DNA from: Microvirga mediterraneensis
GTDB taxonomy: Bacteria > Pseudomonadota > Alphaproteobacteria > Rhizobiales > Beijerinckiaceae
DNA: 64,000 bases
Reading direction: 5' to 3'
Assembly: GCF_013520865.1 (NCBI RefSeq)
Contig: NZ_JACDXJ010000001.1
Location: 4,639,418 to 4,703,417 of the forward strand
Below are positions 6,157-57,501 of the stretch, one piece after another. How positions within the stretch are numbered: the first letter of the stretch is position 1; every line of letters begins with the position of its first letter. Below the pieces are notes generated by a model. It searched no databases, had not been told where the DNA came from, and worked only from the letters and a program-made list of their open reading frames with translations. A program made the translations under genes and the position numbers.

Positions 6157-6922
6157 ACCATGGGGCGCCCACTCAAAGCTGCGCCTGACACTCTAGCATT
6201 CTGGCTGGACAAGCAGCTCGCCGTTGTCCAGCCATCTCCAAGGATCGGTTACGGCGGGCTGGCATCAAGGGCCTAAGGTTTGGTAGAATCGCTCAGGATA
6301 CACGGAAATGAATGACTTATAAGCCCGTCTGTGCCATTACTGGATAGCTTGTTGGTAGTGCTCATCATTGCGTCTTTAGGTTGGATTCTTATACTTCTCC
6401 TGGATGCCCTGTGTTCATCTTTTGACGTATCATACGAGCCACGATGCATCTGTTCACACCGAGCCCATAGACATCACCACGGCCGACTCAGATTCTCTTC
6501 GGCGCTGCGCAAATTCGGCAAGCGATCATCGACACTCCGGGCTACTTCAAGCGTTGCCCGGTGCCGAACGACCGCGAAGGCCCTAACGGCCATCGCCGCA
6601 TCACCATGCAATGCATGACGCGGGGAAGATAATTCCCCAGGAATCCGAGAAACCGGCCGCGAAACTAGCGTGCGCGTCGAGGCTCATTAGTGGGCAACAG
6701 TTTGGAACTGGCACGGCGCACCGCCTTGGACGAACTCGGGCTGGCCGAATGCCCCTTGCCTTAGCGGCATGCTGGAAGCGCTCCGCTTTCGTGTCTGACG
6801 GCGTCAACCTCCCGGCCAGCAGGCTTCAGCGATAGCGACACGCTGTTCCCTTCATTGCCTTATGGACCCAATCCAGTTGTTGCGCGGAAGGCAATGCGCG
6901 CGATCAATCGAACCAGATTACT
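6157..6922. other. 766-base stretch without a supported gene
   Basis: The first part holds a hairpin (6202-6234). Around 6491-6631 one plus-strand reading gives an open run ending QCMTRGR then stop (about 45 residues, containing YFKRCPVPNDREG) that looks like a piece of a real protein, but it has no start and I cannot assign it. The rest gives only short interrupted readings. It may be a decayed intergenic segment separating the copper locus from the sigma54 locus. Confidence 0.4.
6202..6234 (+). terminator. Hairpin after the copper ATPase
   Basis: Two perfectly complementary 11-base arms (TGGCTGGACAA and its reverse complement) enclose an 11-base loop, 46 bases after the ATPase stop codon. 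There is no clear U tract after it, so it may act as an imperfect terminator or an mRNA 3' stabiliser. Confidence 0.5.
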
Positions 6923-7237
6923 TTAAATGTTGACCTCCACATCTAGAAGCGGAGCATATTGCTGTGCCCCGAAAATATCTGAGTCTCCCGCGCTCCCGCT
7001 CGGGCGGCGCCGGAAGATCGTGAACTTAATGGCGCAGGCCGGATCGTATTCGACGAAATCGGCGATGCGGCTTTCCTCGATTCTATAGAGCTTCGCCACT
7101 GCCGTTGGCGTGAGCACCTTACTCCGCAGGACCTGCTCGTAGATGTTCCGGTCAGTGAAGATGATGTCGAAGGTGATCTTATCGACGCCGGCATTTTTGC
7201 TGCGAATGGTTTTTGCGAGGTCTGACAGCTTTTTCAT
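6923..7237 (-). CDS. DUF4387 family protein
   Basis: A 104-residue small protein (MKKLSDLAKTIRSKNAG...) of the DUF4387 type. This family is commonly encoded next to, or fused to, AtuA-like DUF1446 proteins and is thought to act with them. An upstream TTG overlapping the previous stop is possible, but the ATG at 7237 has AGG nearby and fits the conserved N-terminus better. It is the last gene of the two-gene unit starting at 8607, driven by the sigma54 promoter at 8653-8668. Its biochemical role is unknown. Confidence 0.75.
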   Translation of the reverse strand: MKKLSDLAKTIRSKNAGVDKITFDIIFTDRNIYEQVLRSKVLTPTAVAKLYRIEESRIADFVEYDPACAIKFTIFRRRPSGSAGDSDIFGAQQYAPLLDVEVNI

Positions 7238-7248
7238 GAAGAATATCC

Positions 7249-8607
7249 TCAAGCGCCGATCGTGACGGTGTGGATCGGGAAGAGTTCGATCGGATCGTCG
7301 ACGGCAAGCGTATGGTTTACCGTCCAGCGATAGGCGGGAGATGCTTTCAGGACTTCATCCAGCACGAAGGCGACACCGCCAGCCGTTCCCTTCACGTCGG
7401 GCAGGCGTGCATAGAAGAGTTGGCGCGTCCCGGTCATACAGACTTCCTCGGCCATTTTTTCTGTCGGAGCGACGCCTTGCACGATGATACAGAGTTCATG
7501 GGCCGGTGTTTTTACGGGCTCGAGCTCTCCCATCACGCCGTTCTTGCCATAAACGCCGTAGTGCAGCTCGTAGCCCGATTGGCCGAAGCGCTCGAAAACC
7601 TGCGCCTGTGCCCAGGCAATGACCTCGTCGATGTGTGCGATGGTATAGGGATCCCGAACCGAGGCGATGCCAATGAAGCGCTCACCGACCTTGCCCGCGC
7701 CTTCGAGCTTGACGCGAGTCCGCTCCGCGGGAACGAAGCGCTGCCCCGTGACGCGTGTCGTGCGCGGATCGATCTGCTCATAATGGCAATCCCGCATGTC
7801 CAGACGCCCTCCTGCGACGAACTCGTCGTAAGGGTTCGAACGCTCATACATCGCATGTCCCGCCACTGACGCGATGGTGCAGCGCTGATCGGGGTGCATG
7901 GCCGTCACCGTCACGCCACTGCCGTTCACCGCGCCGAGAACGGTTTCCTTCGCACCATAGGGCTCGGCACAGAAAGAAGCGCATTCGAGAACCTTGCCGA
8001 GGTAATAGGCATCGGCCTCGCTCGTGCCGCGGTGAAGAGCGGCGGCCGCAAAGATTGCACAATCGCTCGATCGGCCCCCGATGATGACGTCGCACCCCTC
8101 CTCCAGCAACTTGCGGTAGGGATGAACGCCCGCCATGGCAACGATCCGGTCCGTCGAGTCGAGTTCGGATTGCGTGAGCGGATCGCGTCCGTCGAGGCCG
8201 AGCACGGGCTCGTCGCTTCCAATGGCCCCGCGCACCCTCTCCCTGTCAACCTCCGAGTAGAAGTAGCCGAGCTTGAAAGGCGCAAGGCTGTGCTTCTTCG
8301 CAAGCTCCCGGATGATAGCAACGTACCGATCAACCCGGCTGTTCGTTCCCGTGTCGCCAGCGGAGCCGATGATCATCGGAACGTTGATCCGGCGTGCGGC
8401 CAGGAGCATGGCCTCCAGGTCCTGGCGCTGCCAAGCCTCCGGCGATGTGGACGTGTCCGTCCCAAGAGGAACCGGGCCGATGTCGTCACTCCCGGAATCC
8501 GCCGCGATGAAATCCGGCTCTGCCGCCACGCCGCGCTGGAAGCTATCGGGCTTGAGAGGGGCAAAGCCCAAATGACCATTCGGGCAAATGATTTTGATGG
8601 ACGGCAT
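7249..8607 (-). CDS. AtuA-family (DUF1446) protein
   Basis: A 452-residue protein of the acyclic-terpene-utilisation AtuA/DUF1446 family. The N-terminal GHLGFAP, the ADSGSDDIGP segment and the GSAGDTGTN motif are typical. In Pseudomonas, AtuA is needed for citronellol/geraniol breakdown, but many homologues sit in unrelated catabolic loci, so the substrate here should not be assumed to be a terpene. The start codon at 8607 is preceded by GGAG and lies about 45 bases after a near-consensus sigma54 promoter. The partner DUF4387 gene follows with coupled stop/start. Confidence 0.8.
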   Translation of the reverse strand: MPSIKIICPNGHLGFAPLKPDSFQRGVAAEPDFIAADSGSDDIGPVPLGTDTSTSPEAWQRQDLEAMLLAARRINVPMIIGSAGDTGTNSRVDRYVAIIRELAKKHSLAPFKLGYFYSEVDRERVRGAIGSDEPVLGLDGRDPLTQSELDSTDRIVAMAGVHPYRKLLEEGCDVIIGGRSSDCAIFAAAALHRGTSEADAYYLGKVLECASFCAEPYGAKETVLGAVNGSGVTVTAMHPDQRCTIASVAGHAMYERSNPYDEFVAGGRLDMRDCHYEQIDPRTTRVTGQRFVPAERTRVKLEGAGKVGERFIGIASVRDPYTIAHIDEVIAWAQAQVFERFGQSGYELHYGVYGKNGVMGELEPVKTPAHELCIIVQGVAPTEKMAEEVCMTGTRQLFYARLPDVKGTAGGVAFVLDEVLKASPAYRWTVNHTLAVDDPIELFPIHTVTIGA

Positions 8608-8652
8608 GATAGGCGTTCTCCGGTAAGCGTCACAGCGCGACGATCAGGGTTA

Positions 8653-8668
8653 AGCAAGCACCATGCCA
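8653..8668 (-). promoter_or_regulatory. Sigma54 promoter for the AtuA-family operon
   Basis: On the minus strand the sequence reads TGGCATGGTGCTTGCT. The -24 GG and -12 GC elements stand at exact sigma54 spacing (consensus TGGCAYG-N4-TTGCW). Expected transcription start is near 8642, giving a leader of about 35 bases before the ATG at 8607. Confidence 0.85.
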
Positions 8669-8720
8669 AGAAGACAAACCTAAGATAATGTCTTGTAATG
8701 CAATGACAATTTTCGCAGCC

Positions 8721-8734
8721 GTGACGCAGGTCAC
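8721..8734. promoter_or_regulatory. Candidate activator palindrome
   Basis: GTGAC-GCAG-GTCAC is a perfect 5-base inverted repeat lying 53-68 bases upstream of the AtuA-operon sigma54 promoter, in the spacer after the activator gene. It is a candidate enhancer site for that activator. No clear copy was seen upstream of the second sigma54 promoter, so the assignment is tentative. Confidence 0.35.
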
Positions 8735-8791
8735 CGCCCGGAATTTTCAGGATTTGCGGCTTCCACGCATGGATGCGCGGGATACGCGCGC

Positions 8792-9775
8792 TCAGGTGAT
8801 GTCGAGCTTCAGCATTTGGTGTCGCAGGGCATGGCGCGAGAGCCCCAAGCGCGTCGCCGCTTCAGTCAGGCTGCCATTGGTCGCCGCCAGCATGTGGCGA
8901 ATGAGCTTGATCTGGAAAGCCGTAGTCGCTTCATAGTAATCGACATTGCCCTTGGCGATCGCCTCCCTGATCTCGGGTGGCTGCTCGGTCTTCTCGCCCT
9001 CCTTGATGTCCCGCAGGATGCGGGCGGGCAGATGCTTCACCATGATCGTATTCTCATCCTCGAGAATGAAGATGCGCTCGAGCAGGTTCTCCAGTTCCCG
9101 CACGTTTCCAGGCCAGCGATACCGCCGGAAAACATCGGCCGCATCGATGTCCAGACCCCGGATGACGCGTCCGTAGCGGCTGGAGAGGCGGCGGAGAAAA
9201 TGATCGGTGAGCACGAAGATGTCCTCACCCCGCTCTCGTAGGGGCGGAACATTGATGGCGACGACTTGCAGCCGATAGTAAAGATCCTCCCGAAACCGGC
9301 CTGCATTCACCTCGGACAGGAGAATTCGGTTCGTAGCGGCGATGAAACGTACGTCGACCTCGACTGGATTGATCGCTCCGACGCGACGCAGGCGTTGCGT
9401 ATCGAGTACGGTCAGCAACTTCGCCTGTATGACAAGGTTCATGTCGCGGATTTCGTCGAGGAAGATCGACCCGCCGTTTGCGGCCTCGATCAAACCGGAT
9501 TTCCGGGAAATCGCCCCGGTGAACGCCCCCTTCTCATGCCCGAACAACTCGGATTCGAGCAATTGATCGGGAATGGCAGCGCAGTTGACATCGATGAACT
9601 CCTGCGATCTTCGAGGCGATTGCTGGTGCACCAGCCGGGCGATCAGACCCTTGCCCGTACCGGTTTCTCCATAGATGAGGACGGCGCGTGCCGCACTCCT
9701 GGCGACACGATCAATGAGGCGCCTGACTTCGAGAATCGAGACATGTTCGCCGATCAAGCCTGCTTCGTAGGCCAC
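8792..9775 (-). CDS. Sigma54-dependent transcriptional activator (AAA+, Fis-type HTH)
   Basis: A 327-residue enhancer-binding protein that is almost only an AAA+ domain plus DNA-binding tail. It shows Walker A GETGTGKG (residues 36-43), the sigma54-contacting GAFTGA loop (83-88), LDEIRDM-type Walker B and a C-terminal Fis-like helix-turn-helix (about 290-325, ending SRHALRHQMLKL). There is no receiver, GAF or PAS input domain, as in PspF, so activity must be controlled by a partner protein or by expression. The start is GTG. It lies between the two units that have sigma54 promoters and is their obvious candidate regulator. Confidence 0.9.
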   Translation of the reverse strand: MAYEAGLIGEHVSILEVRRLIDRVARSAARAVLIYGETGTGKGLIARLVHQQSPRRSQEFIDVNCAAIPDQLLESELFGHEKGAFTGAISRKSGLIEAANGGSIFLDEIRDMNLVIQAKLLTVLDTQRLRRVGAINPVEVDVRFIAATNRILLSEVNAGRFREDLYYRLQVVAINVPPLRERGEDIFVLTDHFLRRLSSRYGRVIRGLDIDAADVFRRYRWPGNVRELENLLERIFILEDENTIMVKHLPARILRDIKEGEKTEQPPEIREAIAKGNVDYYEATTAFQIKLIRHMLAATNGSLTEAATRLGLSRHALRHQMLKLDIT

Positions 9776-9891
9776 GCTGGTCCACCCAGGTTAGGGCCTT
9801 CTCAGACGAAGTGGACCCCAGTTCGCCGTCCAAAAAGGCACAGAAACAAAGGAATCCGGAGCTGCTTGCGGTGATGGATCCGTAAGTGGCT

Positions 9892-10962
9892 CTAGGGCCG
9901 GCACTCGAAGGAACTCCACTGGCCGGCACAGGGTTCACGGGATGAAAAGTAAAGGCGAAGCTCGGCTGGTGCAAATATGGAACAGGATATCGTCCTCGCA
10001 TCGCCATCCTGGCCGTGGCGGCACAAGGCCTCACGGCCGTCCTCCGCGTGATATCCCATCAGAGCGGCAATCTCGGAGAGAGGCGGGCAATCGTTCTGGC
10101 CTCCAAGCCACGCCTCGATCCGAGCATAACGCCCTCTCGTGCTGACCGCCATGGGATCGCTTGGCGCCGGGAGCCACGAGGGAGCGCATGCCGAAGACAT
10201 GAAATGGTTCGTCCGCACCACGTAGGGACCGGTCTGGATGGAAAAGGCCTTGTGCCCCAGTTCGACCGCCGCGCAATCTCCCGACGCGTCCGTCATGACG
10301 ATCGTTCCTCCACCGGCATGCGGGGTCTCGGCGATGAGTTCCAGGGCCTCTTCCACGGAACCGCAGTTCCAAAGAAGACGGGTCATGAGGAAGTAGCGCA
10401 GAAGACCCGGACCGTGATCGCTCGTCGAGACATGGGTATCCACAAGGGCGAGGCCGTGCGCGTTCAAGCCGCTGGAAAATGCCCCTGGACTGCCGAGACT
10501 TCCGACACAGAGAATCGCCCTGCCCGGCCTCTCCGGATCACGATGGAGAAAAACCCTCTGCAGCAGGGCGTGCTCGCCGCGATAATCGCGATTCTTGACG
10601 AGGACAGGCCTACTCGTCGGTGAGGCTCCCCAACTCCAGGCGGAGCAGCCATCCGTCGCGAAGTCGGCAAGAACTCCGAGGTGCAGATAGGCGAGGATGC
10701 TATCGAAGCCTCGGTCAAAACCGTCCGCGATGCCGCGCACCTCCGCTGTGGATTCTGGATCGAGGAACTCGAGCAGGCGTGCCTGCTCATCGAGGAAGGC
10801 CCGTACGGACGGCTTTTCCAATAAGGGGCCTGCCTGCGCCAGACGCGTATCGATGGCACTTTGCACGGCGTCACGGAGCAGCTCGCCGCAGCGAGCCTGC
10901 ATCCGTCCGCGCATGTAGGAGTCACCGGTCAGGAGAACGGGAGAAGCAGGTTCGACTTTCAT
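9892..10962 (-). CDS. C45-family peptidase / acyl-CoA:6-APA acyltransferase-like hydrolase
   Basis: A 356-residue member of the Ntn-hydrolase C45 family (isopenicillin-N acyltransferase-like). The likely nucleophile is Cys106 in ATDGCSAW, which family members expose by self-cleavage. The following VLVKNRDY and SGLNAHGLALVDTH segments match the family. Such enzymes cut or form amide bonds of acyl-amino compounds and small peptides. Its ATG overlaps the stop of the upstream importer ATPase (TGATG), so it is co-translated with the oligopeptide importer and probably processes the imported compound. The substrate is unknown. Confidence 0.8.
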   Translation of the reverse strand: MKVEPASPVLLTGDSYMRGRMQARCGELLRDAVQSAIDTRLAQAGPLLEKPSVRAFLDEQARLLEFLDPESTAEVRGIADGFDRGFDSILAYLHLGVLADFATDGCSAWSWGASPTSRPVLVKNRDYRGEHALLQRVFLHRDPERPGRAILCVGSLGSPGAFSSGLNAHGLALVDTHVSTSDHGPGLLRYFLMTRLLWNCGSVEEALELIAETPHAGGGTIVMTDASGDCAAVELGHKAFSIQTGPYVVRTNHFMSSACAPSWLPAPSDPMAVSTRGRYARIEAWLGGQNDCPPLSEIAALMGYHAEDGREALCRHGQDGDARTISCSIFAPAELRLYFSSREPCAGQWSSFECRP

Positions 10963-11960
10963 CAGGATGCACTCACCAGGTGACAGGCTGCCTTCATGTC
11001 CCCTCCAACATCGCGAAGAACGGGGATCTCATGACGGCAGGGTTCGATGGCAAAGGGGCAGCGCGTATGGAACTTGCAACCGGGAGGCGGCGCCAAGGGA
11101 GAAGGCAGATCGCCCGTGAGCTTTACCCTCTCACGCTTCTCTGCCGCGTCGATCTGCGGTACAGCCGAGAGGAGAGCCTTGGTGTAAGGGTGTTTCGGCG
11201 CCCTCAACACCTCGCGGCTCGGGCCCATCTCGACGATATCGCCCAGGTACATCACGGCAATGCGATCGCTCACATGGCCGATGACTCCGATGTCGTGCGA
11301 GATGAACAGGTAGGTCAGCCCCAGCTCGCGCTTGAGCGATCCTAAGAGGGCGATGATCTGCGCCTGGATCGAAACATCGAGAGCCGAAACCGGCTCGTCG
11401 CACACGACGAAGGTCGGATTGAGGATCAGGGCCCTGGCGATCCCGATACGCTGGCGCTGGCCACCGGAGAACTGATGCGGGAAGCGGCCCAGATGCGCGG
11501 CTTTCAAGCCGACGCTTTCGAGCATCGCGACCACGCGATCTCGGATCTCTCCACGTCGGGCAACCCCATGGATGGACAAGGGCAGGCCAACGATGTCCTC
11601 GACGGATTTCCGCGGATTGAGGGAGGCATATGGGTCCTGGAAGATGATCTGCATGCGGCGGCGCAGGGCTGTCATCTCTCGATGCGACAGCTTCGTGATT
11701 TCGGTGCCTTCGAAGCTGATGCTGCCGGCAGTGGGTTCGTGCAAGCGCAGGACTGTCCGTGCAAGTGTCGATTTCCCACAGCCGGACTCGCCGATGAGGC
11801 CAAGCGTCTCGCCCGGCTGGACAGAGAAGCTCACCTTATCGACGGCGCGAAGATCGAGCGCAGGCTGCCGGGCAAGCCTTTGCATGATGCCGCTGTTGAG
11901 GTGATAGACCTTTTCGAGATCACGAACGTCAAGAAGAGGGTGGCGCTGCGCATCGCTCAT
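10962..11960 (-). CDS. Dipeptide/oligopeptide ABC transporter ATPase (DppF/OppF type)
   Basis: A 332-residue ATP-binding subunit with Walker A GESGCGKS, signature FSGGQRQRIGIARAL, Walker B VVCDEPVSALD and the H-loop region. The C-terminal oligo_HPY extension (PHTRCPFAIEPC-like cysteines near the end) marks it as the DppF/OppF class. I chose the ATG at 11960 (MSDAQRH), which overlaps the upstream ATPase stop as ATGA; a longer upstream reading lacks family sequence. It is the fifth gene of the importer operon. Confidence 0.9.
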   Translation of the reverse strand: MSDAQRHPLLDVRDLEKVYHLNSGIMQRLARQPALDLRAVDKVSFSVQPGETLGLIGESGCGKSTLARTVLRLHEPTAGSISFEGTEITKLSHREMTALRRRMQIIFQDPYASLNPRKSVEDIVGLPLSIHGVARRGEIRDRVVAMLESVGLKAAHLGRFPHQFSGGQRQRIGIARALILNPTFVVCDEPVSALDVSIQAQIIALLGSLKRELGLTYLFISHDIGVIGHVSDRIAVMYLGDIVEMGPSREVLRAPKHPYTKALLSAVPQIDAAEKRERVKLTGDLPSPLAPPPGCKFHTRCPFAIEPCRHEIPVLRDVGGDMKAACHLVSAS

Positions 11961-12946
11961 GAGAAGTACTCCTCGGCTCGGATGCAGCGCGCTTGACGGT
12001 CGGGCCCGATATCGATCATAGGAATATCGGACCGGCACTGGGGTAATCGGTCGTCGCAGCGATCATGGAAGCGGCAGATTCCGCCGAGCCCGATGAGTTC
12101 CGGGACCTGCCCCTCGATCGGCCTGATCGGGGCGTCGAGATCCGATAGGCGCGGAATCAAGCCTATGAGGCCGCGGGTATAAGGATGCTTGGGAAGGCTG
12201 ATGAGATCGCGGGTCGGACCCGTTTCGACGACTTGGCCAGCATACATCACCGCGACCCGGTCGGTATGCTCGGCCACGACGCCGAGATCGTGCGTGATGA
12301 GAACCACGCTCATGCCGAGCTCACGGCGAAGATCCCCGATCAGGTCGAGCACCTGCGCCTGGATCGTCACATCGAGCGCAGTTGTCGGCTCGTCCGCGAT
12401 CAGTAGCTTCGGGCGGCACGACAGGGCGATGGCGATCATGATGCGCTGGCGCATTCCGCCCGAGAACTGGTGCGGGTAATCGTCAATCCGCTTGTCGGGA
12501 GCTGGAATGCCGACAAGCCGGAGCATCTCGATCGCACGTGCCCGTGCGGCCTCCCGGCGTCCCGTCCGGGGTAGATCCGTGGTATGGGCGAGCAGGACCT
12601 CCTCGATCTGCTCCGCAACCGTGAGGGCCGGATTGAGCGCAGTGAGCGCGTCCTGCATCGTCATGGAGATGTCGCGACCCCGGAGGCGCCGCCACTTCTC
12701 AGCGTCGAGATGCCTCAGATCAATGCCATCGAAGCGGATCGTCCCCTCGGCAACATAGCCCGGCGAACGCACGAGGCCGATGACGCTGGCGAAGGTCACG
12801 CTCTTCCCCGAGCCGCTCTCGCCCACGATGCCGAGGCACTCGCCAGGATAGAGATCGAGATCGACCCCGTCGACGGCCGTTACCAGACCTGCGCGGGTGG
12901 GAAAGCAAGTCTTGAGGTTGCGGATCGAGAGGAGAGGCTCCGGCAT
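11957..12946 (-). CDS. Dipeptide/oligopeptide ABC transporter ATPase (DppD/OppD type)
   Basis: A 329-residue ATP-binding subunit with Walker A GESGSGKS, signature [15 protein letters not shown] and Walker [12 protein letters not shown], and the DppD-type C-terminal extension with Cys residues ([16 protein letters not shown]) that in related proteins bind an iron-sulfur cluster. The ATG at 12946 ([12 protein letters not shown]) starts one base after the upstream permease stop. With DppF it forms the heterodimeric motor of the importer. Confidence 0.9.
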
Positions 12947-12947
12947 C

Positions 12948-13850
12948 TCAATCACTGAACTTCGGGTCAAAAGCATCGCGAAGGCCCTGGCTTGCCACAT
13001 TGATCGAGAGGACGAGGATGAGGATGGCGATGCCCGGGAAGGTGCTGACCCACCACGCATCCAGGATGAAGCCCCGTCCGTCCGCCACCATCGATCCCCA
13101 CGATGCCGTGGGGGGCTGAACACCGATGCCGAGAAAGGACAAGCTTGCTTCCAGGATGATCACGTGCGCCATGCGGATGGTGGAAACGACGATCACCGGC
13201 GAGAGAATGTTCGGCAGGATTTCGCGGAACATGATGTGAAGACGCGGCGCGCCGATTGCCCGGGCAGCCTCTACATATTCCATCTCGCGGGCAGCGAGCA
13301 CCTCGCCGCGAACGACGCGCGCAGGAACGACCCACTCCTTATAGACCAGCGCCAGGATGATGTTCTGCAGGCCGGGGCCCATCATAGCCATCAGGGCGAT
13401 GGCGAAGATGAGATAGGGAAAGCCGAGAAGAATATCCACGACACGCGAGATCGCGATATCGACCCAGCCACGCATGTAGCCCGCAGCGAGACCGAGCACC
13501 GTCCCGATGGCGGTCGCGATGAGGACGACGGCCAGTCCTATGGTGATCGAAACCTGGGAGCCATAGATGATACGAGAAAGGATATCTCGACCGAGCGCAT
13601 CGCAGCCGAGAAAGTAGCTCCAATCCCCCCCTTCCATCCAGGCCGGAGGCTGGAGGCGGCGCAAAAGATCCGTCTCGTAGGGATCGTGAGGCGCAAACCA
13701 GGGCGCCAGAAGCGCCAGCAGGACGAAGATGAGAACGATAATTGCGGCCGATACGGAGAACCCATCGCCGGAGAACCGGCTCAGACTCTGCCATGTGGGC
13801 GTCTCTGCACGCTCCGGCACGGTAGCGGGTGCTTGAATGGCGGCACTCAC
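12948..13850 (-). CDS. Dipeptide/oligopeptide ABC transporter permease (DppC type)
   Basis: A 300-residue inner-membrane permease. An N-terminal helix (residues about 32-55) is followed by the DppC-specific extracytoplasmic segment (HDPYETDLLRRLQPP...HFLGCDALGRDILSRIIYG) and five further helices, with the EAA loop (EYVEAARAIGAPRLHIMFREILPN) that docks the ATPase. It overlaps the end of the DppB-type gene by four bases (ATGA), showing tight translational coupling. Confidence 0.9.
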   Translation of the reverse strand: MSAAIQAPATVPERAETPTWQSLSRFSGDGFSVSAAIIVLIFVLLALLAPWFAPHDPYETDLLRRLQPPAWMEGGDWSYFLGCDALGRDILSRIIYGSQVSITIGLAVVLIATAIGTVLGLAAGYMRGWVDIAISRVVDILLGFPYLIFAIALMAMMGPGLQNIILALVYKEWVVPARVVRGEVLAAREMEYVEAARAIGAPRLHIMFREILPNILSPVIVVSTIRMAHVIILEASLSFLGIGVQPPTASWGSMVADGRGFILDAWWVSTFPGIAILILVLSINVASQGLRDAFDPKFSD

Positions 13851-14854
13851 AGGCGAACCCTCGGATTGAGAAGCGTATAGAGGATATCGGCGACGAAGTT
13901 CAGCAGTACGTAGGTGACGGCGTAGAGCAGCACGGCTGCCTGCACGAGGGGATAGTTACGAACGAAGATGCTCTCGACGACGAGACGGCCAAGCCCGGGC
14001 CAGCCGAACACGGTTTCAACCACCATATTGCCTCCGAGGAGAGAACCGGTCTCGATGGCCGCGACTGTGACGGTGGGCACCAAAGCGTTCTTGAGGGCGT
14101 GGCGCCAGAGGATCCGACGGCGCGAGAGCCCCTTGGCCTGGGCGAAGACGATGTAGTCGGACCGCAGCACCTCCAGCATTGCCGCCCTCTGGACACGGGT
14201 GAGAACGGCCGCCATGGGCAGTGCCAGCGTGAGCGCGGGAAGGACCAAGTGCGACAGGGCATCGGCGAAACAATCGGGCCGTCCGCGCAACATGCTGTCG
14301 ATGGTCATCAGCCTGGTGATCGGAGCCACCTCGCAGGCGAAATCCATACGCCCGGAAACCGGCAGCCACCGCATCTGCACGGCGAAGAGAATGATGAGGA
14401 TGATGCCGAACCAGAAGCCCGGCAGCGAGACGCCAAAAAGCGATCCGATCGCCGCGAGCCTGTCGACGAGGCGATTCTTCTTGACGGCCGCCACCACGCC
14501 GAGAGGGATCGAGATCGCGAGAGCCAAAAGCAGCGCCGCGAGCGTCAGCTCTATGGTCGCGGGAAGACGTTCAGCGATGACGTCGAAGACCGGACGGCGG
14601 TGGAAGAAGCTCAGGCCGAAATTGCCAGTCAGGGCATTTCCGATAAAGATTCCGAACCGTTCCAGCGCTGGACGGTCCAGTCCCATATCATGGCGGAGCA
14701 CCTGAGCCTGCTCAGGAGTAGCCTGCTGGTCGGCCAGCATGATCTCCACAGGATCGCCGGGCGTCAGGGCCATCATCACGAAAACGATGACGCTGACGCC
14801 GAGGAGAACCGGCAGGAGCTGGACGACACGCCCTATGAGCGCCAACGGTTTCAT
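13847..14854 (-). CDS. Dipeptide/oligopeptide ABC transporter permease (DppB type)
   Basis: A 335-residue inner-membrane permease with the DppB architecture: first helix at residues about 8-30 (VVQLLPVLLGVSVIVFVMMAL), the TPGDP motif directly after it, a periplasmic stretch, and C-terminal helices containing the EAA-like loop (YIVFAQAKGLSRRRILWRHALKNAL). The gene begins about 37 bases after the binding-protein gene. It is unambiguously an importer subunit; the substrate cannot be read from it. Confidence 0.9.
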   Translation of the reverse strand: MKPLALIGRVVQLLPVLLGVSVIVFVMMALTPGDPVEIMLADQQATPEQAQVLRHDMGLDRPALERFGIFIGNALTGNFGLSFFHRRPVFDVIAERLPATIELTLAALLLALAISIPLGVVAAVKKNRLVDRLAAIGSLFGVSLPGFWFGIILIILFAVQMRWLPVSGRMDFACEVAPITRLMTIDSMLRGRPDCFADALSHLVLPALTLALPMAAVLTRVQRAAMLEVLRSDYIVFAQAKGLSRRRILWRHALKNALVPTVTVAAIETGSLLGGNMVVETVFGWPGLGRLVVESIFVRNYPLVQAAVLLYAVTYVLLNFVADILYTLLNPRVRL

Positions 14855-14891
14855 CGGGCTCTTTCTCCTTGAGCAGGTGGTAGGCCGACGC

Positions 14892-16418
14892 TTACTTCAC
14901 GCAGGCGTCATGCAGGTTGATCTTGCTGTCCGCACTTGGCTCCCAGCCGCTGACGCGCTTCGAGACACCATAGATGTCCTGCGGCAGCCACAGGAAGATC
15001 CACGGAACGTCCTTATTCACGATCACCTGCGCCTTCTTGTAGAGATCGGCACGCTTGGACTGGTCGAGTTCGACATTGGCCGCATCCAGCAGCGCATCAA
15101 CGTCCTTGTTGGAATAGAACGCGCTGTTGCCACGATCTCCGGTTTTCAGGGTCGGCACGAAGATATCGGCTGGATCGAGGGAGCCGTTACCCCAAGAGGT
15201 GAAGTACATGTCGCCGCTCTTCTCGCCCTTCGGTGCCCACTTCGCCCGAAGTGTCGAGCCTTCACCCACATTCACCTTAGCGCGGATGCCAGCCTTCGTC
15301 AGCATCGAGGCGACGGCCTCCGTCATCTCCTTGAAGGCGCCTTCCGAATCGATGGTCACGTCGACACCATTCGGATAACCCGCCTCTGCAAGGAGCTTCT
15401 TCGCCTTCTCCGGATCGAAAGCATAGGCGGGAAGATCGGGATTGTAGCCGAACGCATCGGGGCTCATGACGCCGTTTAGGGGAATGGCGGTTCCAAGCAG
15501 GACCTTGTCGATGATGAGCGCCTTGTTGATCGCCATGTTGGCGGCTTGGCGCACGCGCGGATCATCGAAGGGCTTCTTCACGTTGTTCAGGGCGACGAAG
15601 AACGTGCGCGTGCCGTTGACCTTCATCACTTTCGTGTTCACATTGGCCTCCACCTTCTTCATGTCGAAAGGCGGCAGCTCGTTGATGATATCGACTTCAC
15701 CCGCGAGGAGAGCGGCGACGCGGGAGGCGTTCTCCGGAATGATGCGGAAGATGGCGCGGTCGACGCAGGCCTTGCCGACAGGCGGGATATCGGTCGCCCC
15801 GCCGTAATATCCGTCGAAGCGCTCCATGATGATGGAATCGCCCTTGCGCCATTCCACCAGTTTGAAGGGTCCGGTTCCATTGGTCTGGGTCGCAAGCCCC
15901 TGCGACCCGACCTTCTCGGTAAAGGCCTTGCTCACCACTTCTTGGAAGGGAAGCATTGCAGGCAGAATCGGCCATGGCTCGCTCAAGGTGAACCGCACCG
16001 TCCGGTCATCGACCTTCGTGATCGTCTTGACTGGGCCGACGAGATCCTTGCGCGGGCTGGTCTGCCCGCCCATGGCGCCGTCCTTGGTGAGGCGCTCGAA
16101 GGTAAAGACGATATCGTCCGCGCTCATCGGAGAGCCGTCGTGGAACGTCACCCCCTGCCGGATCGTGAAGTCATAAGTCAGGGGATCGACCTGCCTCCAA
16201 GATTCAGCCAGCTCCGGAACGACCTTCATCTTGGCATCGCGGGTCAGGAGGCCATCGTAGATGTTCCGGATGATGGTTTCCGTTTCGCGCTTGCGGTGGT
16301 TCGCAGGATCGAGTGTCAGTGCATCGAGGGTAAATCCAACCCGAAGTTCACTTGCAGCCGCATGAACGGACATCGCCGTCGTGAATACGAAAGCTGTGAG
16401 TGTGAGAGCTTTGAACAT
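14892..16418 (-). CDS. Periplasmic substrate-binding protein of the Dpp/Opp-type importer
   Basis: A 508-residue SBP_bac_5-family binding protein with an N-terminal signal peptide (cleaved after the AAA near residue 22). It has the family signatures LTLDPANHRKRETE, DPLTYDFTIRQGVTFHDGSPMSADDIVFTFER and GTGPFKLVEW. It is the first gene of a five-gene importer operon followed by the C45 hydrolase. Related proteins bind peptides, but also glutathione, nickel chelates or opines, so the ligand is open. It stands about 50 bases after the start predicted from a sigma54 promoter at 16482-16497. Confidence 0.9.
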   Translation of the reverse strand: MFKALTLTAFVFTTAMSVHAAASELRVGFTLDALTLDPANHRKRETETIIRNIYDGLLTRDAKMKVVPELAESWRQVDPLTYDFTIRQGVTFHDGSPMSADDIVFTFERLTKDGAMGGQTSPRKDLVGPVKTITKVDDRTVRFTLSEPWPILPAMLPFQEVVSKAFTEKVGSQGLATQTNGTGPFKLVEWRKGDSIIMERFDGYYGGATDIPPVGKACVDRAIFRIIPENASRVAALLAGEVDIINELPPFDMKKVEANVNTKVMKVNGTRTFFVALNNVKKPFDDPRVRQAANMAINKALIIDKVLLGTAIPLNGVMSPDAFGYNPDLPAYAFDPEKAKKLLAEAGYPNGVDVTIDSEGAFKEMTEAVASMLTKAGIRAKVNVGEGSTLRAKWAPKGEKSGDMYFTSWGNGSLDPADIFVPTLKTGDRGNSAFYSNKDVDALLDAANVELDQSKRADLYKKAQVIVNKDVPWIFLWLPQDIYGVSKRVSGWEPSADSKINLHDACVK

Positions 16419-16481
16419 TCTTCCTCTCCATTCCGCGTTCGGTGTTCCCTGAGCTTATGCTTACGCGGACATGGCCAAGTT

Positions 16482-16497
16482 AGCAAAAATCATGCCA
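16482..16497 (-). promoter_or_regulatory. Sigma54 promoter for the importer/amidase operon
   Basis: On the minus strand the sequence reads TGGCATGATTTTTGCT, identical to the AtuA-operon promoter in the -24 block (TGGCATG) and the -12 block (TTGCT) with the same 4-base spacer. Expected start is near 16471, leaving a leader of about 53 bases before the binding-protein ATG. Confidence 0.85.
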
Positions 16498-16814
16498 GTC
16501 AGAAGAAAAGATAATTCCGAATTCATATCAGCAACTTACCATACTCCGCTCCAAGCGCCTGATATCCTCCTGGCGTGAAAATCCCGCGTGGTGCGCAGAT
16601 TACACCCATGGTCCGGAGGCGCCTCGTTCCAAGAACCTGGAATCCTATATCCGGCACAACTGTCAAGGCGGACTTACGATCACAGGTATCCCCTATCCTG
16701 TTCCCAGGACATAAGGCCACTTCAGAGACAGGTCAGCACGCCTTGTACCTCGTCACCGCAGATAAGCTCACTGGCCCAGCGGCGCATCATGTGCTGGCTG
16801 TTGGGGATTGGGCC
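16498..16814. other. Intergenic stretch between the sigma54 promoter and a decayed gene
   Basis: I see no supported gene here. The sequence directly upstream of the sigma54 promoter would be expected to hold activator sites, but no clear inverted repeat shared with the other promoter was found. Confidence 0.4.
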
Positions 16815-17010
16815 GATCTTGCTGATCGGACGAACACCATCGGCAGTTCAAGGTCGGAGGCGGAGCGCGCCATGTCTCCAGCAAGGATGCCGAGGCTGCC
16901 CGCATAGGTGTGCACCCCGAACCTCAGGGCGATCTCCATGCTGAATTAGGCGATCCAGATTCGCTGCAAATAGCTTTCGATCACCGACACGGCCTTTCCC
17001 TCATTCGCGC
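16815..17010 (-). pseudogene. Remnant of an alpha-glucan (glycogen) phosphorylase
   Basis: On the minus strand, directly after the PfkB-type kinase gene, the reading SVIESYLQRIWIA-stop-FSMEIALRFG...YAGSLGILAGDMARSASDLELPMVFV appears. FSMEIAL and the Gly-rich YAGxLGILAGDxxRSAxDLxLPMV block are characteristic of the N-terminal part of alpha-glucan phosphorylases. An in-frame TAA stands just before FSMEIAL and similarity ends after about 65 codons, so this is a short fossil, not a gene. It suggests a lost glycogen-degrading gene downstream of the sugar kinase. Confidence 0.7.
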
Positions 17011-17013
17011 CCG

Positions 17014-17937
17014 TCAGCTCGCCGCCGCATAGAGGCGCTCGACATCCTCCCGCCGGCAAAGCTCGGTCCCTGGTGTCATCAATGTCGCGGCGCCCGCGGC
17101 CATCCCCAGGCGGACGGCGTGGCGAAGATCGAGGCCCTGTGTCAACCCAAACACGATGGCGCCGACCATGCTGTCTCCCGCCCCGACGGCGCTCCGGACG
17201 GGGACCTTGATAGGCCTCAGTCGCTCGGCGCCCTCGCCGGACACAAGAAGGGCCCCCTCCCCGCCGAGGGACACCACCATGACCTCGCAGGCACCCTGTG
17301 CAATCAGGCTTCGCGCAGCGGCTGTCTGTGCGGCCTCGTCCGGAAGATCCCGGTCGACCCATTCCCGAAGCTCGCGGAGGCTCGGCTTCAGGAGATACGC
17401 TCCCGTGCGCGTTTGACGCAGAGCATCGCCCGATGTGTCGAGCACGAGGCGGGTCCCGAGATGCTTTGCTAGGTCGGCCACCTGCTGAAAGAAACCGGCT
17501 GGAACACCGGGCGGCAGGCTGCCGCTGGCGACGATGAACCGGGCACCCTCGGCAAGGCGGGCCAGACGGGCGAGGCAAGCCTGCCACTCCTCTTCGATCA
17601 GGTTCGGACCGGGCAACATGAAACGGTATTGCTGGCCGCTCCGCCGCTCATCGACCGTGAAGCTCTCGCGTGTCGTTCCTGCGATCGGGACGCGATAATA
17701 GAGAATGTGCTCCCGGTCCAGCAGAGCATCCAGAGCCATCCCGGCGGCCCCGCCGGCGGGAAAGATCGCGAGCGCATCGCCGCCAAGTCTGCGGATCACC
17801 CGCGCCACGTTGATACCCCCGCCGCCTGGATCGTATCGCGGTGCCTCGCAGCGGACCTTGTCCGTCGGGAGAACCGCGTCTGCGCTCGTGGCAATGTCCA
17901 GCGCGGGATTCATAGTCAGCGTCACAACCTGCGGCAT
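17014..17937 (-). CDS. PfkB-family hexose kinase (1-phosphofructokinase/6-phosphofructokinase-2 type)
   Basis: A 307-residue ribokinase-fold kinase. The N-terminus MPQVVTLTMNPALDIATS and the GGGGINVARVIRRLGG motif define the LacC/FruK/PfkB subgroup. The C-terminal SAVGAGDSMVGAIVFG contains the anion hole and catalytic Asp. It probably phosphorylates fructose-1- or fructose-6-phosphate. The fossil phosphorylase behind it would fit a glycogen-to-glycolysis unit used under low oxygen. There is no fructose PTS gene nearby, which favours the 6-phosphofructokinase reading. Confidence 0.85.
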   Translation of the reverse strand: MPQVVTLTMNPALDIATSADAVLPTDKVRCEAPRYDPGGGGINVARVIRRLGGDALAIFPAGGAAGMALDALLDREHILYYRVPIAGTTRESFTVDERRSGQQYRFMLPGPNLIEEEWQACLARLARLAEGARFIVASGSLPPGVPAGFFQQVADLAKHLGTRLVLDTSGDALRQTRTGAYLLKPSLRELREWVDRDLPDEAAQTAAARSLIAQGACEVMVVSLGGEGALLVSGEGAERLRPIKVPVRSAVGAGDSMVGAIVFGLTQGLDLRHAVRLGMAAGAATLMTPGTELCRREDVERLYAAAS

Positions 17938-39921: not shown

Positions 39922-41321
39922 GAGGTGACCTCGATGCGTAGGAATGAAAGATTTCTCCGGAAAATGCCCTCGTCTTCCAGGCACCTGAGATCGAAGACGA
40001 GCGCCCCGTCGGCCACGCGCCCGATCACGGGCCATGGAAGCTTTCTGAAGGCCGCGCTCAGCGCTTCTACCGCCCGCCCTCCATCTTTCGTCCGCATCAA
40101 GAGTCCGAAGCTCGGGATCGTATCGAGCGGCAAAGCCCCCGAGCCGATCTGGCTTGCGCATGGCGCGGCTTCGACGACGGCGCTGCCTCCCAGGATTTCG
40201 GCCAGAACTGGGGCGAGGCGAAGGGCCTGCTGCCGCACGTCTTCCACGTTCCGCGCCAGGAAACCCATGGTGGGAAGTCTCTGGGCGAGCCGGTCGGGAT
40301 CGCGATAGAGTCGCAAGGTCGCCTCGCAGGCTGCGAGCCGCATCTTGTCCACCCGCAAGGCACGCTTCATGGGGTTGCGGTTGATGGTGGCGATGAGATC
40401 CTTGCGTCCGACGATGAAGCCCGCCTGCGGCCCGCCGAGAAGCTTGTCACCGGAGAACGTGATCAGGTCCGCCCCCTCCTCTACCGCCTCGCGGACGGTA
40501 GGTTCCTTCCTGAGGCCGAACCGGGACAGATCGACCAGCGTTCCCGAGCCGAGATCGTTGACGAAGGGCACGTTGCGCTGCCGCGCGAGCTTCGCAAGTT
40601 CGCGGGCGCCGACCTCCGTGGTAAAACCTTCGATGCGGTAGTTCGAGGTGTGGACCTTTAGGATGAGCCCAGTCTCAAGACTCATCGCGTCCGCATAATC
40701 GCGTGGATGGGTGCGGTTCGTGGTGCCAACCTCGCGCAGGAGGACTCCTGCCCGCGCCATGATCTCAGGCATGCGGAACGCGCCGCCGATCTCGATCAGT
40801 TCGCCACGAGAGACGATGGCTTCCCTACCCTGCGCGAGGGTGTTGAGGACCAGAAGCACCGCCGCTGCATTGTTGTTGACGAGGGTCGCATCCTCCGCGC
40901 CCGTCAACTCGCAGACGAGCGCGCGGACATGGTCGTCGCGCTCTCCTCTCCTGCCACTGGCGAGATCGAATTCGAGGGAGACGGCATCGCGCATGGCAGC
41001 CGTTGCGGCTTTGATGGCTTCTTCCGCCAGAACCGCGCGACCGAGATTGGTGTGGAGCACTGTACCGGTCAGATTGAAGACCGGCTTCAGCCGTGGCTCC
41101 GCCCGCGCGTCGAGATGGGCCAGGACGGACGCGACAATGGTCTCATCGTCGATCTCCGCTCCAGGCCGCACGTCCTCCCGCAGCGCCGCGAGGGTATCGC
41201 GTACGGCTTGCGTGGTTTCCGCGCGCCCGTGTTTCTCGACAAGGGCCGCGACATTCGGCTGACGAAGTACGCGGTCGACCGAAGGGAGACGACGCAAGGG
41301 AGAAGGAGCCACTTCGGTCAT
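39918..41321 (-). CDS. selA: L-seryl-tRNA(Sec) selenium transferase
   Basis: A 467-residue PLP enzyme that converts Ser-tRNA-Sec to Sec-tRNA-Sec using selenophosphate. The family block FNLTGTVLHTNLGRAVL, the PLP-binding SGDKLLGGPQAGFIVG (catalytic Lys) and the NNNAAAVLLVLNTLAQGREAIVSRGELIEIGGAFR stretch are all present. The ATG at 41321 (MTEVAPSPL) begins two bases after the fdhE stop. It is co-transcribed with fdhE upstream and selB downstream. Confidence 0.95.
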   Translation of the reverse strand: MTEVAPSPLRRLPSVDRVLRQPNVAALVEKHGRAETTQAVRDTLAALREDVRPGAEIDDETIVASVLAHLDARAEPRLKPVFNLTGTVLHTNLGRAVLAEEAIKAATAAMRDAVSLEFDLASGRRGERDDHVRALVCELTGAEDATLVNNNAAAVLLVLNTLAQGREAIVSRGELIEIGGAFRMPEIMARAGVLLREVGTTNRTHPRDYADAMSLETGLILKVHTSNYRIEGFTTEVGARELAKLARQRNVPFVNDLGSGTLVDLSRFGLRKEPTVREAVEEGADLITFSGDKLLGGPQAGFIVGRKDLIATINRNPMKRALRVDKMRLAACEATLRLYRDPDRLAQRLPTMGFLARNVEDVRQQALRLAPVLAEILGGSAVVEAAPCASQIGSGALPLDTIPSFGLLMRTKDGGRAVEALSAAFRKLPWPVIGRVADGALVFDLRCLEDEGIFRRNLSFLRIEVTS

Positions 41322-56751: not shown

Positions 56752-57501
56752 TCAGACGGCGAGGTAGCCACCGTCGACGACGAGCGTCGTGCCCGTCACG
56801 TAGCTCGACATGTCGGAGGCGAGGAAGACCGTCGGGCCGATCAGCTCCTCGGGCTCACCGAAGCGGCCGAGCGGAATGCGCGCAAGAAATCGTTCCGCTC
56901 GCTCGGGATTGGTACGCGTGGCTTCAGTCATCGGCGTGTTGAGCGTGCCCGGCGCGATCGCGTTCACGCGAACGCCGTCCTTTGCGAGTTCCTGCGCAAG
57001 ATTCTGCGTCAGCATGCGCACGGCGGCCTTCGAAGTAGAATAGCTGATAGACGTGGATGTCGACACGAAGGAAGCGATCGACGCCATGTTGATGATTGTT
57101 CCTTTCGTTGCCCGCAATGCAGCGACGAATGCCAGCGTCACATTGAGCGTGCCGTCGAGATTGACCTGCATCGCGGCATCCCAGGAGCGGCGCACGTCGG
57201 GGCTGTCGATCGTGTTGCGCGGGCATATGCCCGCATTGTTGACGAGAACCGAGACTTGTCCGATGGAAGCGTCGACCTCGCGCGCCAGTGCCGTGCAGGC
57301 CTCGGCATCGGCAACGTTGAGCGTGTAGGACCAGGCCTCGCCTCCCGCCTGGACGATGCCCTCTGCCGTCTGCCTGGCCGCATCACCATTCAGATCGGTC
57401 ACGATGACCCGCGCTCCCTCCGCGGCGAGCCCGCGTGCAATGGCGGCGCCGTTTCCTTGGCCGGCACCGGTGACAAGTGCGATACGCCCTTTGAGCAACA
57501 T
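56752..57501 (-). CDS. Short-chain dehydrogenase/reductase (FabG-like)
   Basis: A 249-residue SDR with TGAGQGNGAAIARGLAAEGARVIVTDL (NAD(P) site; Asp after the beta strand favours NAD), the NNAG block, catalytic Ser-Tyr-Lys (SIASFVSTSTSISYSTSKAAV) and the C-terminal DGGYLAV. It probably oxidises a secondary alcohol or reduces a ketone of the catabolised compound. It is the first gene of the two-gene unit with the EthD protein and has a perfect 14-bp palindrome about 75 bases upstream. Confidence 0.9.
   Translation of the reverse strand: MLLKGRIALVTGAGQGNGAAIARGLAAEGARVIVTDLNGDAARQTAEGIVQAGGEAWSYTLNVADAEACTALAREVDASIGQVSVLVNNAGICPRNTIDSPDVRRSWDAAMQVNLDGTLNVTLAFVAALRATKGTIINMASIASFVSTSTSISYSTSKAAVRMLTQNLAQELAKDGVRVNAIAPGTLNTPMTEATRTNPERAERFLARIPLGRFGEPEELIGPTVFLASDMSSYVTGTTLVVDGGYLAV

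Follow-up and report, generated by a model that had tools for sequence, protein, structure and literature searches.

A predicted sigma54 regulon in Microvirga mediterraneensis that may serve the uptake and breakdown of an amide-like compound

Introduction

Why should a Dpp-type importer, a C45-family amide hydrolase, a sigma54 activator and a pair of AtuA-family and DUF4387 proteins lie together? The question is raised by a 64-kb stretch (the window) of the 5.35-Mb genome of Microvirga mediterraneensis, in which nine genes encode these proteins, all on the minus strand. A first-pass annotation, made from the sequence alone, had read them as one coordinated system for uptake and breakdown of a peptide- or amide-like compound under two sigma54 promoters. 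Pfam and NCBIfam profiles confirm the nine gene families (ten window genes entered the Pfam search). Judged from their sequences, the nine genes very probably form one small sigma54 regulon of two operons, and it is somewhat probable that the products act as a single chain in which a compound is imported, cut at an amide bond and split by a lyase. A literature search for a described system combining sigma54, C45 and an importer found none.

Two conserved sigma54 promoters

The two sites picked out by the annotation are present exactly as reported, on the minus strand and just before gene starts, and are the only sites in the window with a single mismatch to TGGCACG-N4-TTGCW. Sequence by itself is insufficient as proof of a promoter because matches occur at close to control levels: the window has no excess of sigma54-like sites (8 matches with at most two mismatches versus 10.0 expected), and the exact pattern TGGCAYR-N4-TTGCW is found five times genome-wide versus three times for the reversed control pattern. 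As counts in the window are at the chance level, conservation was used as the promoter test.

The comparison covers 56 loci (L020–L075) obtained by searching 84,980 species genomes with AtuA peptide patterns, at 63–93% identity. Promoter counts are restricted to this set; L077–L080 were left out as duplicates of L020–L022 and L024, and the near-identical L041–L043 are counted separately in the tallies of promoters and of the composites described later in the text. A locus is termed ‘without activator’ when the fetched DNA holds no relative at least 50% identical. Several of these 12 loci are on short contigs, and one, L064, has a 45% identical relative 3.4 kb downstream of the DUF4387 gene start region.

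A site was called conserved when at least 10 of 12 positions matched no more than 140 bp upstream of the gene. Such sites precede AtuA in 39 of the 44 loci with the activator and in one of the 12 without it, and they precede the binding-protein gene in 29 of 31 loci; random 140-mers from the same 56 loci reach this score in 138 of 5000 draws. At the level of sequence, conservation establishes both sigma54 promoters. The 350 bp upstream of other cluster genes are close to random, with sites of at least 10/12 before 5/49 activator, 6/44 C45, 3/39 permease 1 and 7/59 DUF4387 genes (random 8.4%), in a scan that counts some loci twice and has artefactual positions where a gene lies close to a contig end. 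The gap between the C45 and activator genes has an ordinary RNA structure (z = -0.67) and no terminator-like or sigma70-like site; positions 6700–17000 hold three sigma70-like sites versus 2.6 expected and four terminator-like sites versus 7.0 expected.

The activator and its predicted site

The annotation was right to call the activator input-less. Its open reading frame of 327 aa, taken from the first start after a stop, has Walker A at residue 36, so there is no room for an input domain. The protein has the marks of a bacterial enhancer-binding protein (bEBP), namely an AAA+ domain with Walker A, a GAFTGA motif and a Fis-type helix-turn-helix (HTH), and lacks the regulatory domain found in most members. 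PspF-type input-less activators are alike in having the AAA+ domain at the very start, GAFTGA and a Fis-type HTH, whereas the window protein would control a catabolic regulon, has no known PspA-like partner and is probably encoded in its own target operon.

As expected of bEBP targets, predicted activator sites lie before the -24/-12 promoters. An inverted-repeat search upstream of the -24 elements gave related GC-rich palindromes, refined to ATGCGTGAAWTTCACGCAT, and such a palindrome, which the annotation had not seen, stands upstream of the -24 element at both window promoters. In 68 of 73 upstream regions its score exceeds the 99% level of shuffled controls; these regions had been chosen for their sigma54 site and were used to train the palindrome model. 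In a held-out test, a model built from 57 regions of other groups scored at least 12.8 in each of the 16 regions held out, which came from the window, Microvirga, Chelatococcus and Bosea. Applied to the window, the held-out model reaches at least 12.8 in five places: 41208–41226 ranks first, then both palindromes of the system, then 16591–16609 and 56867–56885. The first-ranked place is a strong palindrome match without a sigma54 partner in the pair scan.

The spacing from palindrome to -24 element shows an 11.0-bp periodicity (vector length 0.555, 60 sites), and none of 1000 jittered sets was equally strong, in a test that merged identical site/distance pairs only and drew many sites from related genomes. 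When palindrome and promoter are combined into one composite pattern, modelled on the sites in the window, the host genome has just two matches, one at each of these promoters, and the controls have none. The scoring model finds 63 composites in the 56 loci versus none in one block-shuffled set. They comprise 37 at AtuA (in 36 loci), 25 at the binding protein and one unassigned (L047), and 23 loci have composites at both genes. Outside the training set, L084, L085 and L098 also have them at the expected promoters.

Presence of the composite follows that of the activator, with 38 of 44 loci having both versus 0 of 12 loci without the activator (Fisher P = 3.3e-8, which ignores relatedness). The six activator loci lacking a composite fall into pairs. 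L026 has the sigma54 site and a palindrome just below the limit, and L051 meets a contig end. L040 and L070 have a sigma54 site before the binding protein and no palindrome, and their activator and AtuA genes are nearly adjacent. In L048 and L049 the activator motif reads GSFAGA, compared with GAFTGA in the other 38 of 40 open frames examined (duplicates included; some loci have no called frame), and neither sigma54 sites before AtuA or the binding protein nor palindromes were found. The GAFTGA loop is needed for contact with sigma54. Joint loss of GAFTGA and the promoters is expected if the activator was the reason for the promoters, and a switch away from sigma54 in these two loci is possible. 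Their gene order has also changed.

The gene set in other genomes

The annotation had proposed that the same gene set and promoters be sought in related genomes, and they are found there. Thirty of the 56 loci have the full set of nine genes, some of these in Beta- and Gammaproteobacteria (L046, L054, L065), and the promoters are conserved. Of the 26 incomplete loci, 10 have a contig end within the cluster (L026, L028, L034, L036, L041, L051, L057, L066, L069, L072). Within the genus, AtuA at 87% identity or more occurs in 6 of 37 genomes including the host, and the other five carry the whole cluster. The activator query against 289 genomes of the class gave two matches besides the host, both with the whole cluster, one of them taken to be the same genome as L040. 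On plasmids, each of four activators at least 59% identical lies no more than 2 kb from one of the four closest AtuA matches. The plasmid hosts are Cupriavidus (three) and Ciceribacter; the Ciceribacter record has all nine genes, and the one Cupriavidus record examined is without the importer and C45.

As regards regulation, the idea of one coordinated system therefore stands, carried by the gene set, the palindrome, the composite unique in the genome and the correlated loss. The link to a single substrate stays conditional.

AtuA/DUF4387 and citramalate lyase

The closest solved relatives of the AtuA and DUF4387 proteins are the two citramalate lyase subunits CmlA and CmlB (PDB 9erq/9evf), an identity taken from PDB molecule names and the title; absence of other families from the PDB relative lists carries no weight. 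AtuA matches CmlA over residues 4–445 of 452 (E = 1.6e-77), and DUF4387 matches CmlB over residues 8–107 of 109 (E = 5.6e-23). The two subunits are encoded by adjacent genes and are homologous to CmlAB over nearly their full length, with the large-subunit fold the same. In the tree, 23 rows of the window type form a group separate from the CmlA clade (support 100/100); the tree is midpoint-rooted and the program warns about long branches. This kinship makes it likely, as far as homology can tell, that the window pair performs lyase-type chemistry; its AtuA clade lies far from the citramalate enzyme, which leaves the substrate unproven.

The family name (PF07287) would instead suggest utilization of acyclic terpenes. 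The name is all that speaks for this reading, which we consider barely credible: the only solved relative found is the citramalate lyase, and there are no other atu genes among the ten window genes or the named recurrent neighbours.

The closest known system is that of CmlAB and the AtuA/DUF4387 pair of the enterobacterial methylaspartate pathway. Methylaspartate/mesaconase genes adjoin the CmlA-side proteins of Salmonella and Prevotella, where the pair lies within methylaspartate clusters (L088, on a Salmonella plasmid, and L089). The window pair differs in belonging to a separate clade, in having no methylaspartate/mesaconase genes beside it and in its association with an importer, an amide hydrolase and sigma54 control. 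The fate of citramalate is noted as open in PMC4682846; the PDB naming of the methylaspartate-cluster pair as citramalate lyase would answer it. Literature searches found no paper for DUF4387 or for citramalate together with AtuA, and no title listed for citramalate lyase/CmlAB appears to describe CmlAB. A distant pair (34% identity) is carried with dehydrogenases and fumarate hydratase on Klebsiella plasmid pHNLC3 (L101), typed as conjugative, a few kb from fosA3 and IS26.

The hydrolase and the importer

The C45 protein scores 155.7 bits with NF040521 (cut-off 85) and 73.2 with PF03417 (cut-off 23.2). Residues D104, G105 and C106 are invariant in 26 C45 sequences, the Cys following the Gly at the place of self-cleavage. 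It shares the Ntn fold over the whole chain with isopenicillin N acyltransferase, N-acylethanolamine acid amidase and acid ceramidase, and Cys106 sits where the mature chains of those enzymes begin. Unlike them it is 13–18% identical, apparently cytoplasmic (no secretion signal is seen by eye) and paired with an importer. The best fold match, with the nucleophile kept, is isopenicillin N acyltransferase, which might suggest a detoxifying acylase of the penicillin-acylase kind or an acyltransferase in place of a catabolic amidase. This seems improbable, as identity is only 16–18%, lipid amidases match equally clearly and the gene is joined to those of an importer and a lyase.

The importer has the five genes of the Dpp/Opp/Gsi peptide importers, with a family-5 binding protein, two permeases and two ATPases having the oligo_HPY region. 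It differs from them in that no component reaches the cut-off of a specific model; ATPase 2 exceeds that of a general subfamily only, and permease 1 is ~1 bit short of the Opp2B cut-off. Nickel and opine-type models likewise give scores for the binding protein and the permeases, and the solved relatives of the binding protein include proteins that bind opines or nickel. One could thus imagine that a metal chelate or an opine-like or siderophore-like compound is taken up and dismantled by C45 and AtuA/DUF4387. We give this little credence, since the scores lie well below the specific opine and nickel cut-offs, the families are broad, and no metal-related gene recurs beside the cluster among the named neighbours.

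A proposed pathway

The annotation's suggestion of uptake and breakdown of an amide-like compound fits these parts, and the following sequence of events can be proposed. The input-less activator would bind the predicted palindrome upstream of each promoter and drive sigma54 RNA polymerase. It would probably amplify its own expression, because its gene comes after C45 on the same strand and has no palindrome–promoter composite of its own. The importer would take up an amide conjugate, and the cytoplasmic C45 enzyme, judged by its family, nucleophile and fold, would cut the amide. The short 2-hydroxy carboxylic acid released may then be split by AtuA/DUF4387, acting as a two-subunit lyase of CmlAB type, to give small acids, for example pyruvate and acetate. 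Because almost no other gene is found repeatedly next to the cluster in related loci, both halves of the substrate would enter central metabolism directly. Candidate substrates are compounds in which an amino acid or amine is amide-linked to a citramalate-, malate- or citrate-like acid.

The same genes might serve two co-regulated but separate functions, with AtuA/DUF4387 degrading a free hydroxy acid and the importer and C45 scavenging unrelated peptides or amides. We regard this as unlikely, although some loci speak for it. Four loci (L033, L044, L055, L060) have the activator and the AtuA pair and no C45 in the fetched DNA, as has L057; the contigs of L057 and L033 are cut short. TctC-type receptor genes lie near AtuA–DUF4387 in six loci (L033, L044, L050, L055, L060, L085), all but L050 with a sigma54 activator also nearby. 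Against separate functions stand the 30 loci with all nine genes, which keep together even when reordered (L045, L048, L049). In the Bacillota, the same AtuA pair occurs with a DctM-type permease under a GntR regulator (L053, L058, L059, L064), and three of these loci (L053, L059, L064) add a C26-type amide hydrolase, thereby joining the pair to an amide hydrolase and importer of other families.

Several points weigh against the single chain and the regulon that would serve it. The five loci lacking C45 imply that hydrolase and lyase are not inseparable. The AtuA clade is set off from the CmlA side by a long branch, at ~35% identity, and no fumarase/mesaconase or methylaspartate gene is found among the ten window genes or the named recurrent neighbours. 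L052, which has no activator, retains a sigma54-like site before AtuA. Uniqueness of a composite pattern taken from the window's own sites is compatible with weaker further targets. Both the regulon and the chain are read from sequence.

Three elements are new here: the predicted activator site, the relationship of the AtuA pair to citramalate lyase, and the sigma54 gene next to the cluster in some loci, described later in the text. The proposed pathway offers a chemical hypothesis for an AtuA/DUF4387 branch whose only annotations are ‘terpene utilisation’ and ‘unknown’. It links this branch to importer, amide hydrolase and regulator in such a way that each gene can be tested in turn. Since composite promoters were found at just two places in the genome, a reporter could be used to look for the inducer and hence the substrate. 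The locus is also a natural test of how a sensor-less sigma54 activator is controlled.

The neighbouring sigma54 gene

The binding-protein gene is included in 31 loci, and in 14 of them it has an rpoN-like gene as its neighbour (L025, L027, L029–L032, L035, L038, L045 at 11822–13126, L047, L067, L071, L072, L074). The identification was made with Pfam and NCBIfam on L045 and, for the others, by 32–40% identity to the L045 protein. Eleven of these loci are of Rhodobacteraceae type by record title or genus, two are Alphaproteobacteria bins and one is Aquamicrobium (L045); the host genome has a single rpoN, far from the cluster. The first T of TTGC is G in 18 of 28 promoters of rpoN-linked loci versus 2 of 45 others. 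The linked sigma54 was considered as the cause of this -12 change and dropped, as these loci come from related genomes and L045 is an exception to the trend.

Cereibacter sphaeroides has RpoN1–RpoN4, each with its own activator and targets; the role of RpoN4 is left open, and the available text gives none for RpoN4 and one activator (PMC11999139). The loci described here resemble C. sphaeroides in having several rpoN copies and differ in that rpoN adjoins a catabolic cluster. An equation of the cluster-linked RpoN with RpoN4 was dropped, having no comparison behind it. Such loci lend themselves to asking whether a sigma54 copy encoded nearby is confined to its own promoters. We tentatively suggest, as a possibility rather than an expectation, a portable and self-contained sigma54 switch: a sensor-less activator with its own palindrome, and often its own sigma54 with a shifted -12 element (in many Rhodobacteraceae-type genomes), may move between classes of Proteobacteria with a single catabolic module that would degrade a widespread, as yet unrecognised 2-hydroxy-acid amide through a sister subfamily of citramalate lyase.

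Features and flanking DNA

Table 1. Features of the cluster, in window coordinates
Feature	Position	Strand	Basis or remark
DUF4387 protein, kin of CmlB (citramalate lyase subunit B)	6923..7237	-	start by eye inside ORF (open reading frame) 6923–7252
AtuA-family protein, kin of CmlA (citramalate lyase subunit A)	7249..8607	-	PF07287
Predicted sigma54 -24/-12 promoter of AtuA–DUF4387, TGGCATGGTGCTTGCT	8653..8668	-	exact match; conserved
Predicted activator palindrome of AtuA promoter, GCGCGCGTATCCCGCGCAT	8773..8791	-	start 123 bp upstream of sigma54 site
Sigma54 activator: AAA+ with GAFTGA, Fis-type HTH, no input domain	8792..9775	-	Pfam/NCBIfam
C45-family amide hydrolase, nucleophile Cys106	9892..10962	-	NF040521, fold, conservation
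ATPase 2 (Dpp/Opp F type)	10962..11960	-	start by eye inside ORF 10962–12038; above NF008453 cut-off
ATPase 1 (Dpp/Opp D type)	11957..12946	-	Pfam/NCBIfam
Permease 2 (Dpp/Opp C type)	12948..13850	-	Pfam/NCBIfam
Permease 1 (Dpp/Opp B type)	13847..14854	-	Pfam/NCBIfam
Family-5 substrate-binding protein, secretion signal by eye	14892..16418	-	Pfam SBP_bac_5, E = 1.5e-92
Predicted sigma54 -24/-12 promoter of importer operon, TGGCATGATTTTTGCT	16482..16497	-	exact match; conserved
Predicted activator palindrome of importer promoter, ACGCGGGATTTTCACGCCA	16571..16589	-	start 92 bp upstream of sigma54 site
Possible second, weaker palindrome copy (tandem)	16591..16609	-	score 12.8, held-out model; about equal to unrelated 56867, so weak

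The flanks of the cluster (6160–6900 and 16600–16945) show no convincing genes by eye and perhaps hold gene remnants. PfkB (17014–17937) was considered as a member of the system and dropped, a relative being found in one locus only (L062, 30% identity). A neighbour resembling aldehyde dehydrogenase recurs in L031, L037, L043, L071 and L087.

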